Below, piece by piece: positions 2,536 to 17,606 of a DNA stretch of 64,000 bases. The first letter of the stretch is position 1. Each line of letters starts with the position of its first letter. The DNA is from Flavobacteriaceae bacterium (GTDB taxonomy: Bacteria; Bacteroidota; Bacteroidia; Flavobacteriales; Flavobacteriaceae): the NCBI GenBank assembly GCA_024644725.1, contig JAHEHE010000001.1, positions 25,257-89,256 on the forward strand, written 5' to 3'. Made by a program: the position numbers and the translations under genes. A model generated the notes under the pieces. The model saw only the letters and a program-made list of their open reading frames with translations, made no database searches and was not told the DNA's origin.

Positions 2536-3936
2536 ATGAAATACAGAATTGAGCACGATACCATAGGAGAGGTTAAAGTGCCTGTGGACAAGTATTGGGG
2601 AGCCCAAACCGAACGATCTAGAAACAATTTCAAAATAGGTCCTGAGGCTTCGATGCCCAGAGAGATCATAGAGGGTTTTGCCTATTTGAAAAAAGCGGCT
2701 GCATATGCCAATCATGACCTGGGCGTGCTCAGTCTGGAAAAAAGAGATGCAATCGGAGAGGTATGTGACGAGATTCTTCGCGGAGAGCTCTATGATCAGT
2801 TTCCTTTGGTGATTTGGCAAACCGGCTCCGGAACCCAGAGCAATATGAACTGTAATGAGGTGATCGCCAACAAGGCTCATTTGAACAGTGGCGGAAGCCT
2901 GGAAGGCCAGGATCGATTCATTCATCCCAATGATGACGTGAACAAGTCTCAGTCTTCAAACGACACATTCCCGACCGGAATGCACATTGCGGCATACAAA
3001 AAGATCGTCGAAGTCACCCTGCCGGGCGTACAAAAGCTACGTGACACTTTGGAGGCCAAGTCGAAAGCCTTCACAGATGTTGTGAAAATCGGGCGAACCC
3101 ACCTGATGGATGCCACCCCTCTTACCCTGGGGCAGGAATTTTCAGGTTATGTCTCGCAACTGGATCACGGAATGAAGGCACTCACCAATACCCTGGATCA
3201 CCTGTCTGAACTTGCCCTGGGAGGCACCGCAGTGGGTACCGGAATCAATACCCCGGAAGGCTATGACACCCTGGTTGCGCAGTACATTGCGGATTTCACC
3301 GGTCTACCATTTGTTACTGCAAAAAACAAATTTGAGGCCCTTGCGGCTCACGATGCCATCGTGGAGACCCACGGTGCGCTCAAACAGCTGGCGGTTTCTC
3401 TGATGAAAATTGCGAATGACATTCGTCTTCTGGCTTCCGGACCTAGAAGTGGTATCGGAGAGATCATTATCCCGGCAAACGAACCGGGCTCATCGATTAT
3501 GCCGGGTAAGGTCAACCCGACCCAGGCGGAAGCAATGACCATGGTTTGCGCCCAGGTAATAGGAAATGACGTTGCCGTCACCGTTGGTGGACTCAACGGG
3601 CACTATGAGTTGAATGTATTCAAGCCGGTGATGGCTTCCAATACGCTTCAAAGCGCACAACTACTGGGTGATGCATGCGTATCATTCAATGACAATTGTG
3701 CGATCGGAATCGAACCCAACCTGGACAGAATCAAGTATCTGGTGGACAATTCCCTTATGCTCGTAACGGCTCTCAATACCAAGATCGGTTATGAGAATGC
3801 GGCTAAAATAGCCAAGACTGCGCACAAGAATGGAACAACCTTGAAGGAAGAGGCCGTCAACCTGGGATTGCTCACGGCTGAGGAATTCGACGAATGGGTA
3901 AAACCGGAAGACATGGTTGGAAGCTTAAAAGTCTGA
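2536..3936 (+). CDS. fumC: Class II fumarate hydratase
   Basis: [32 protein letters not shown]..., [16 protein letters not shown] signature. Start at 2536 preferred over 2503. Confidence 0.97.
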
Positions 3937-15197: not shown

Positions 15198-16064
15198 ATG
15201 TCAGAGAATCTAACTGTACCCAGGCAGAAGAAACCGGAGTGGCTCCGGGTAAAACTCCCTGTGGGAAAGAAATATAAGGACCTGAGGGGGCTTGTAGACA
15301 AATACAAGCTCAACACAATCTGTACCAGTGGAAGTTGCCCAAACATGGGGGAATGCTGGGGAGAAGGAACGGCTACGTTCATGATCCTGGGCAATATATG
15401 CACCCGATCCTGTGGCTTCTGCGGAGTCAAGACCGGGAAACCGGAAAGTGTAGAATGGGATGAACCGGAAAAAGTCGCGCGTTCCATACATCTGATGAAA
15501 ATCAAGCATGCCGTCATCACGTCTGTCGATAGGGATGATCTTAGGGATGGAGGGTCAATCATTTGGGCGGAGACCGTTGAAGCGATCCGGCGCAGCAACC
15601 CGGAGACTACACTCGAAACGCTTATCCCTGACTTCAGGGGCATCCGGAGAAATATCGATCGGATTGTTGACGTGGCACCCGAAGTAATCTCCCACAACCT
15701 GGAAACGGTAAGGCGACTTACCCGGGAGGTAAGAATTCAGGCCAAATACGATCGAAGCCTGGAGGTCCTGGAATACATCAAAGATTCAGGGCAGCCCAGA
15801 ACAAAATCCGGAATCATGCTAGGCTTGGGTGAACGTGAAGAAGAGGTGATCGAAACCTTGCACGATTTGAAAAAAGCCAAAGTGGATATTGTCACTATTG
15901 GACAATATCTTCAACCGAGCAAAAAACACCTGCCGGTTCATGAGTTCATTCCACCGGAACAATTCGAGAAGTACAAACGCATAGGTTTGGAACTCGGTTT
16001 CAGGTATGTTGAAAGCGGTGCTCTTGTCCGTTCTTCTTACCGGGCAGAAAAACACCTGGTATGA
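15198..16064 (+). CDS. lipA: Lipoyl synthase
   Basis: Radical-SAM CTRSCGFCGV, auxiliary cluster CTSGSCPNMGECW, C-terminal RSSYRA. Confidence 0.97.
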   Translation: MSENLTVPRQKKPEWLRVKLPVGKKYKDLRGLVDKYKLNTICTSGSCPNMGECWGEGTATFMILGNICTRSCGFCGVKTGKPESVEWDEPEKVARSIHLMKIKHAVITSVDRDDLRDGGSIIWAETVEAIRRSNPETTLETLIPDFRGIRRNIDRIVDVAPEVISHNLETVRRLTREVRIQAKYDRSLEVLEYIKDSGQPRTKSGIMLGLGEREEEVIETLHDLKKAKVDIVTIGQYLQPSKKHLPVHEFIPPEQFEKYKRIGLELGFRYVESGALVRSSYRAEKHLV

Positions 16065-16157
16065 TTTAACATAGGATTAACAGTGCGTTTTCAAAAATGG
16101 AATGGAATTTGCTACCTTTATACTGAAGCAAAATTCCCCATTAGTTTTGACTTCGTT

Positions 16158-16184
16158 ATGATTAATTTTGAGTTAGTAAGCTAA
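16158..16184 (+). CDS. Candidate nano-ORF MINFELVS* (unit 1)
   Basis: ATG ATT AAT TTT GAG TTA GTA AGC TAA; identical codons in units 1 and 2. Confidence 0.3.
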   Translation: MINFELVS

Positions 16185-16213
16185 AAGGCTCTTCATTTTT
16201 TGGAGGGCCTTTT
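16183..16213 (+). terminator. Intrinsic terminator, unit 1
   Basis: Stem AAAAGGCTCTTC / GGAGGGCCTTTT with G-U wobbles, T-rich 3' side. Confidence 0.65.
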
Positions 16214-16440
16214 ATTTGATCAAACGATTTACTCCCTATCAAATAATGCATTGCGATTGAGAAGAATCTCTCCGCACACCTGGTTTCTGAAAAAGAAATC
16301 AACAAAAAATGCGATACCGGCAAATAAATTAATAAATTCATAACAAATATTAACAAATCTGTAACACTTGACAACGAGTTTGGCACGAGATTTGCAAATA
16401 TTCAATTGAAGCAAAGTTCCCCACAGATTTTGTTTTCATT

Positions 16441-16467
16441 ATGATTAATTTTGAGTTAGTAAGCTAA
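16441..16467 (+). CDS. Candidate nano-ORF MINFELVS* (unit 2)
   Basis: ATG ATT AAT TTT GAG TTA GTA AGC TAA. Confidence 0.3.
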   Translation: MINFELVS

Positions 16468-16496
16468 AAAGCACTTCATCCCGAAGTGCTTTTTTG
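16466..16496 (+). terminator. Intrinsic terminator, unit 2
   Basis: AAAAAGCACTTC atccc GAAGTGCTTTTTT. Confidence 0.75.
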
Positions 16497-16697
16497 TTTG
16501 GAACAGAATATTTGAAAGTTTTCAGCCGGGAAAAAGTGGCATTTATTAACAATAACATTCAAATCTTGCAAATAATTGCAAGACGTGGTCAAAAAAATGG
16601 TTAAACCAAATATTTTTCACTATAATTTTGTTGAATTATCAAAATATTCTTACCTTGTAACCGTAAACAAAGTTCCTCACAAAATTTTGTTCTTCAT

Positions 16698-16724
16698 TTG
16701 ATTAATTTTGAGTTAGTAAGCTAA
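16698..16724 (+). CDS. Candidate nano-ORF (TTG start) [M]INFELVS* (unit 3)
   Basis: TTG ATT AAT TTT GAG TTA GTA AGC TAA; same codons apart from the start. Confidence 0.25.
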   Translation: MINFELVS

Positions 16725-16753
16725 AAAGCACTTCTTTCGAAGTGCTTTTTTTC
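16723..16753 (+). terminator. Intrinsic terminator, unit 3
   Basis: AAAAAGCACTTC TTTC GAAGTGCTTTTTTT. Confidence 0.75.
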
Positions 16754-16793: not shown

Positions 16794-17606
16794 TCAGCAA
16801 CGCCGAATGAATTCAAGAACCAGATCATTGAGTTTTTCCTCCGATCCTCTTGCGGCCTCCTGCACTGCTTCGTGAGAAACCGGCTCAATTTTGCCCTCGA
16901 TACCGAGGTCGGTGATCACCGAAAGTCCAAAGCACTTCATATCCATGTGCCTGGCAACAATCACCTCAGGAACCGTGCTCATCCCGACCGTATCTGCACC
17001 CACCAGTCTGACCATTCGATACTCAGCCGGTGTCTCGAAGGTAGGTCCCTGAAGTGCCAGGTACACCCCTTGTCTGACGGGTATGTTCTTTTCTCCCGCA
17101 ACCTCGTTCATAATCCGAATCATTTCGAGATCATAAGGCTCATGCATATCGACAAATCTGGGGCCAAAACGCGAATCGTTTTCACCCCTTAGCGGATGTT
17201 CGGGCATAAAATTGATGTGGTCCGTTATAATCATGATGTCACCGACCTCAAAATCAGGGTTCACCCCCCCACTGGCATTCGAAACCATCAATTTCTCAAC
17301 TCCGAGAAGCTTCATGACCCGCACCGGAAAAGTAACTTCCTCCATTTCCCATCCCTCGTAATAATGGAAGCGGCCTTGCATGGCGACGACTTTTCTCCCT
17401 GAGAGTTCCCCATAGATCAGTGCACCGGTGTGACCGCTGACCGTGGAGACCGGGAAATTGGGAATGTCGTGGTACGGAATCTTCTTTTCGACCCGGATCG
17501 TCTTTGCCACACCCCCCAGTCCTGTGCCCAGGATAATGCCAATCTCAGGATTTATGATCCCCAACTCCTTTAAGAATTTAGCCGTTTCCTTGATTCTTTC
17601 GTACAT
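16794..17606 (-). CDS. punA: Purine nucleoside phosphorylase
   Basis: EIGIILGTGLGG, GRFHYYEGWEMEEVTFPVRVMKLLGVEKLMVSNASGGVNP. Confidence 0.95.
   Translation of the reverse strand: MYERIKETAKFLKELGIINPEIGIILGTGLGGVAKTIRVEKKIPYHDIPNFPVSTVSGHTGALIYGELSGRKVVAMQGRFHYYEGWEMEEVTFPVRVMKLLGVEKLMVSNASGGVNPDFEVGDIMIITDHINFMPEHPLRGENDSRFGPRFVDMHEPYDLEMIRIMNEVAGEKNIPVRQGVYLALQGPTFETPAEYRMVRLVGADTVGMSTVPEVIVARHMDMKCFGLSVITDLGIEGKIEPVSHEAVQEAARGSEEKLNDLVLEFIRRC

Follow-up and report, generated by a model that had tools for sequence, protein, structure and literature searches.

The window analysed here, a stretch of 64,000 nt, belongs to the genome of a Lutimonas-like member of the Flavobacteriaceae. Between lipA and a convergent purine nucleoside phosphorylase gene (punA), it carries three copies of a 24-nt block, ATT AAT TTT GAG TTA GTA AGC TAA. 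An earlier note had located these blocks, together with the preceding codon, at 16158-16184 (ATG), 16441-16467 (ATG) and 16698-16724 (TTG), and both positions and letters proved exact. A search of the window for the 24-nt block with up to three mismatches retrieved only these three, and none in 100 dinucleotide shuffles; no further copy was found in the whole of its own genome bin. Each block is part of a unit of ~90 nt; every unit has a promoter to itself and, at the 5' end, a conserved hairpin, neither of which had been described in the earlier note. The features of the locus are as follows.

15198-16064, + strand: lipA, lipoyl synthase, upstream neighbour (TIGR00510 above cut-off).
16067-16081, + strand: TAAC-N7-TAAC direct repeat upstream of unit 1, a candidate activator site (sequence).
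16098-16112, + strand: sigma54-like -24/-12 promoter of unit 1, TGGAATGGAATTTGC, with a degenerate -24 element (fixed offset as in other units).
16124-16217, + strand: predicted small RNA unit 1, from predicted +1 to terminator (fold z-score -4.1; homolog alignment).
16125-16154, + strand: 5' hairpin of unit 1, C-rich loop TTCCCCAT (fold; family-wide stem pairing).
16161-16180, + strand: invariant segment of unit 1, the predicted pairing seed and previous "nano-ORF" (block search, homologs, tiling).
16182-16214, + strand: intrinsic terminator of unit 1 (fold).
16351-16365, + strand: TAAC direct repeat upstream of unit 2 (sequence; family statistics).
16380-16395, + strand: sigma54 -24/-12 promoter of unit 2, TTGGCACGAGATTTGC, near consensus (sequence, fixed offset).
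16407-16498, + strand: predicted small RNA unit 2, from predicted +1 to terminator (fold z-score -4.8; model match).
16408-16437, + strand: 5' hairpin of unit 2, loop TTCCCCAC (fold; family-wide stem pairing).
16444-16463, + strand: invariant segment of unit 2, predicted seed (block search, homologs, tiling).
16466-16497, + strand: intrinsic terminator of unit 2 (fold).
16631-16658, + strand: non-sigma54 promoter of unit 3, TTG ... TACCTTGT (fits TAnnTTGY, near the sigmaA box TAnnTTTG).
16663-16753, + strand: predicted small RNA unit 3, from predicted +1 to terminator (fold z-score -3.4; model match).
16666-16691, + strand: 5' hairpin of unit 3 (fold).
16701-16720, + strand: invariant segment of unit 3, predicted seed (block search, homologs).
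16722-16752, + strand: intrinsic terminator of unit 3 (fold, sequence).
16794-17606, - strand: purine nucleoside phosphorylase I (punA), downstream neighbour, convergent (TIGR01700 above cut-off).

A unit opens with a promoter, followed by a 5' hairpin whose loop is rich in C; then come the invariant ATTAATTTTGAGTTAGTAAG and, last, an intrinsic terminator. The predicted seed covers ~20 nt (GAUUAAUUUUGAGUUAGUAAG), and the conserved UUUUCAUUAU lies directly 5' of it. Compared with shuffled sequence, all three units have the more stable fold (z -3.4 to -4.8). In the predicted fold only ~44% of the invariant segment is unpaired, which speaks against its proposed role as a seed. The fold also bears out the earlier observation that the TAA of the block abuts or overlaps the foot of the terminator stem. 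Across the homologous units described below, intrinsic terminators are present in 68/69, and the stem sequence varies between units. The terminator of unit 3 has a stem and T-run on the minus strand too, and could end the convergent phosphorylase transcript. Pairing in the 5' stem is kept in 92.6% of cells (37 units), compared with 45-73% when the partners are slid by 1-3 columns. Most changes in this stem are one-sided and give G-U pairs, few are double (compensatory), and the covariation is modest and partly common to the -1 slide control. The loop of this hairpin is C-rich and conserved (CCCCA, CCTCA), without complementarity to the SusC leaders discussed below. Three units (L043, 729-784; L060, near 74; L073, near 3187-3285) have no 5' hairpin: a TAnnTTTG-like box stands just 5' of the block, which is followed directly by the terminator. 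Because these units keep only block and terminator, the block is apparently the core functional part.

To place the units in a wider context, a set of 71 distinct units was assembled from Lutimonas and related marine genomes. In G025, a genome of the same genus, the lipA-punA gap likewise holds three units, as does the array of L. saemankumensis in this gap, and G148, from another genus, has one unit with the same neighbours. A covariance model detected more copies in relatives of G148, some of them at a second location, and a second model without the exact-block requirement added variant copies. The gap between lipA and the phosphorylase gene holds the majority of the units; the remainder are found after tag, sppA, gldC or other genes, with the gene downstream of these dispersed copies usually on the opposite strand. 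As the dispersed copies have no constant partner gene, they point to an action in trans. A scan of 84,980 named genomes returned 45 stretches, nearly all from Flavobacteriaceae, and the named strains of Lutimonas saemankumensis and L. halocynthiae carry units. In an even sample of 400 Flavobacteriaceae genomes, matches were confined to 5 genomes from 2/237 genera, so the sRNA family is narrow, although the filters of this search were strict. Matches in G162, G193, G319 and G398, from a first order-wide model search, were rejected as chance matches resembling coding sequence, and L004, L005, L059, L061 and L064 as chance matches to a short segment. A phage or mobile origin was rejected as well: viral contigs searched for the unit gave no match, and the copies adjoin housekeeping genes. 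Scans against Rfam gave no match at gathering level and permissive matches at chance level, and the open full-text literature (subscription papers and preprints being outside this scope) gave no match for Lutimonas combined with small RNA. We are very confident that the three blocks belong to a multicopy small RNA (sRNA) family.

A -24/-12 element, TTGGCAY-N5-TTGC, is found at a fixed offset 5' of the block in 49/71 units. The chance level is ~0.004 per unit for a loose version of the pattern and 0.02 per kb per strand for a stricter one, with 800 kb of G025 as the background sample. Neither the presence of this promoter type at units 1 and 2 nor the recurrence of the unit in related genomes, in the lipA-punA gap and elsewhere, had been recorded in the earlier note. 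Judged by the distance from the -12 element, transcription would start within ~2 bases of the foot of the 5' hairpin, near the TGAAGC located there. Most of the non-sigma54 units have sigmaA-like boxes, and the TACCTTGT of unit 3 is close to both the sigmaA box and the SM5 motif of Flavobacterium psychrophilum (PMC9723704). A TAAC direct repeat with a period of 10-12 bp accompanies 39/49 sigma54-type units, against ~0.4% expected for a stretch as long as this. It is situated roughly 15-30 bp upstream of the -24 element and is possibly the binding site of an activator. RpoN is encoded in 6/6 genomes, and each of five genomes has 2-4 sigma54 enhancer-binding proteins, with 4 in L. saemankumensis. 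Genes under sigma54 promoters in F. psychrophilum include those for chaperones, envelope stress and gliding (PMC9723704). Control of the units by sigma54 is in our view highly likely.

The reverse complement of the conserved region, CTTACTAACTCAAAATTAATCATAATGAAAA, resembles the start region of a flavobacterial gene in having A at -3, -6 and -10 to -13. The mRNAs of F. johnsoniae are without Shine-Dalgarno sequences, and A at these same positions stimulates initiation (PMC6847099). A precedent for action at such a site is the multicopy sRNA family FopS, by which SusC-like transporters are repressed at the start codon (PMC11697453). The 31-nt region paired with 648 predicted starts of G025 better than 60/60 shuffles. 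For 32 starts from SusC-like loci the mean was -14.5 kcal/mol, vs -10.2 for 200 core-shuffled seeds, of which 0/200 reached a value as low. Non-redundant SusC leaders (n=23) gave -8.96 vs -5.48 for all starts (p=1.6e-7), and a gene-level test with one representative per similar leader (n=23) against all starts gave p=6e-6; these values are to be read with the SusC leaders having been tested after the idea had come from the sequence and the FopS precedent, and with leaders of related genes not being independent. When the RNA was tiled against the leaders 5' of the start codon, a single peak appeared exactly on the invariant segment TGATTAATTTTGAGTTAGTAA, at -8.96 for SusC leaders vs -5.47 for all leaders and -5.42 for shuffled SusC leaders. 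The predicted duplexes typically span the start codon, from ~-25 to +7. Pairing is poor, however, for several of the SusC leaders, and a search for near-perfect targets (19-nt reverse complement, up to three mismatches) yielded the units themselves and otherwise near-chance matches, with the exception of one SusC leader in G148.

Enrichment is also seen in the SusC leaders of six flavobacteria that yielded no copy (-7.69, p=2.5e-6), and the difference between genomes with and without an sRNA copy reaches only p=0.06. Because of this enrichment where no copy was found, the motif of the SusC leaders may have another reason. SusC leaders thus share a motif within the Flavobacteriaceae, which the sRNA either exploits or merely resembles. 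Judged by statistical complementarity, SusC mRNAs are more likely than not the main targets.

We propose that the three blocks serve as pairing seeds in a tandem array of sibling sRNAs, of which the first two would be transcribed from sigma54 promoters and the third from a housekeeping-like promoter. Each RNA, ~90 nt long, would comprise a 5' hairpin near the +1, the ~20-nt seed and an intrinsic terminator. Activation of sigma54 would cause the RNAs to be made, and in the cell their seed would pair with the leaders of mRNAs for SusC-type TonB-linked importers, from ~-25 to +7. Such pairing would hide the A-rich positions that flavobacterial ribosomes use instead of a Shine-Dalgarno sequence and, with these positions covered, importer translation would be blocked. 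Of this, computation shows how the RNA is built and conserved, that its copies are dispersed, which promoter class they have, that sigma54 is present and that there is statistical complementarity to SusC leaders. The whole account, in which sibling sRNAs that are mostly sigma54-driven repress SusC-like importers, is one that we consider probable.

The same sigma54-controlled siblings could instead have main targets other than SusC, such as mRNAs of lipoproteins or exported proteins, or could act broadly on start regions. We regard this as rather unlikely, even though the reverse complement of the seed has the generic look of a flavobacterial start (PMC6847099), all starts as a set pair slightly better with the seed than with shuffled seeds, and lipoprotein and SusD-like starts are among the best single pairings. 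When only the core was shuffled and the first ten bases were kept fixed, the shift was 0.4-0.8 kcal/mol for ordinary, secreted and lipoprotein genes, compared with ~4.2 kcal/mol for SusC-like genes. A broad effect on lipoprotein and secreted-protein genes was set aside as weak on this measure.

It is less probable still that the main role of the RNAs is to bind a protein or to titrate another RNA, with the binding site in the segment, where a weak AUUAAUU-UUG-AGUUAGU hairpin can form. Multicopy decoy RNAs exist in other bacteria, the segment is conserved almost absolutely, and the variants AGT for AAT and ATA for GTA keep its small hairpin paired. However, the variants L067 and L074 break this hairpin, it is exactly on the segment that pairing with SusC leaders peaks, and Hfq and RRM_1 proteins were not detected in the genomes searched (see below).

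The earlier note had read each block as an eight-codon ORF and left three options: a translated micropeptide (MINFELVS), a leader peptide controlling the following hairpin, or a motif acting at the RNA level. The codon before ATT is ATG in 48/71 units and codon 8 is a stop in 53/71, as either peptide would have it. The other preceding codons are ATA (12), GTG (5), TTG (3), AAG (2) and AAA (1), so that 15/71 units have no usable start codon (ATA, AAG, AAA), and the stop is missing or displaced in 18 units (none within nine codons in 17, a premature or internal one in 1). Codons 2-7 of the 71 units show 0 synonymous changes and several that alter the residue (AAT -> AGT/CAT, GTA -> ATA, TTA -> TAA); the invariance of the block is here partly the result of how units were selected, because the search fixed the block for most of them, whereas starts, stops and model-found variants are free of that bias. 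Furthermore, the block lies near the predicted RNA start in units without the 5' hairpin, and attenuation would have no target, because no gene in the window follows the terminators in the same direction (punA being convergent). The comparison of homologs suggested earlier, for synonymous change and start conservation, thus revealed a block that is kept without start or stop; both peptide options become very improbable, and the RNA-level option gains support. It is just as hard to believe that the units are nothing more than terminators or elements of the lipA 3' UTR: unit 1 starts ~60 nt past the lipA stop and ends in a terminator, but a promoter of its own precedes each unit, termination does not call for three tandem copies sharing an identical 20-nt internal block, and copies also occur after tag, sppA, gldC and other genes.

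Sibling sRNAs of the kind proposed here have counterparts elsewhere. The Qrr sRNAs of Vibrio exist as several near-identical copies, have sigma54 promoters, share a conserved region for pairing and depend on Hfq. The present units share the first three of these properties with Qrr, but have another sequence, structure, phylum and probable target set, and are arranged in tandem arrays. A search for Hfq (PF17209) found none in 6 genomes, with positive controls, which is a further difference from Qrr. RybB and MicA of enterobacteria are SigmaE-driven, Hfq-dependent envelope-stress sRNAs that repress outer-membrane proteins. The likeness is that an alternative sigma factor would drive sRNAs repressing importers or outer-membrane proteins; the sequences are unrelated, and SigmaE and Hfq set RybB and MicA apart. 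This analogy holds only if sigma54 answers envelope stress here, as has been suggested for F. psychrophilum (PMC9723704). Rfp18 of F. psychrophilum, an sRNA from the same bacterial family that affects genes for secreted proteins, is reported to pair through its third stem-loop and to target metalloproteases (PMC9723704), and differs in these respects.

The closest parallels are FopS and GibS of Bacteroides thetaiotaomicron (PMC11697453, PMC7366714), which are likewise multicopy paralogous sRNAs in Bacteroidota. They resemble the present units in an extended AT-rich seed and an intrinsic terminator, and in start-codon action and SusC-like targets, both of which are predictions here. In contrast, neither FopS nor GibS was among the best permissive, chance-level matches in the Rfam scans, the host is a member of the Flavobacteriaceae and not of the Bacteroidaceae, and most units have a sigma54 promoter and an added 5' hairpin. 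RRM_1 (PF00076), the family of the FopS partner RbpB, had no match in 5 genomes, while the control Bacteroides ihuae was positive. With no Rfam match, this promoter class, the 5' hairpin and no RRM_1 detected, we infer a mode of action like that of FopS in what appears to be a separate family. We tentatively suggest, as a possibility that falls somewhat short of an even chance, that these are previously undescribed sigma54-controlled sibling sRNAs, tandem and dispersed, which silence SusC-type importers as a group without an Hfq or RRM_1 chaperone. In Bacteroidota they would correspond to the envelope-stress sRNAs by which outer-membrane proteins are repressed, and their seed would be matched to a flavobacterial start region lacking Shine-Dalgarno sequences.

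Targets are known for few of the trans-acting sRNAs of Bacteroidota, and the examples described in the cited literature are from Bacteroides and F. psychrophilum. If the repression of SusC-type importers is true, stress or environmental sensing would be linked to nutrient uptake in marine flavobacteria, which are major degraders of polysaccharides, and the units would offer a natural test of how an sRNA blocks translation where Shine-Dalgarno sequences are not used. The prediction is directly testable, since the named strains of L. saemankumensis and L. halocynthiae carry units. If borne out, it would also point to SusC leaders as a target that recurs among sRNAs of the phylum. In other flavobacteria, unrelated sRNAs or another factor may act on the same leader motif. 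The leaders of SusC-like genes of flavobacteria without the sRNA (L185-L214) often have TAACT-AAA motifs 5' of the ATG, which are partly complementary to the segment.
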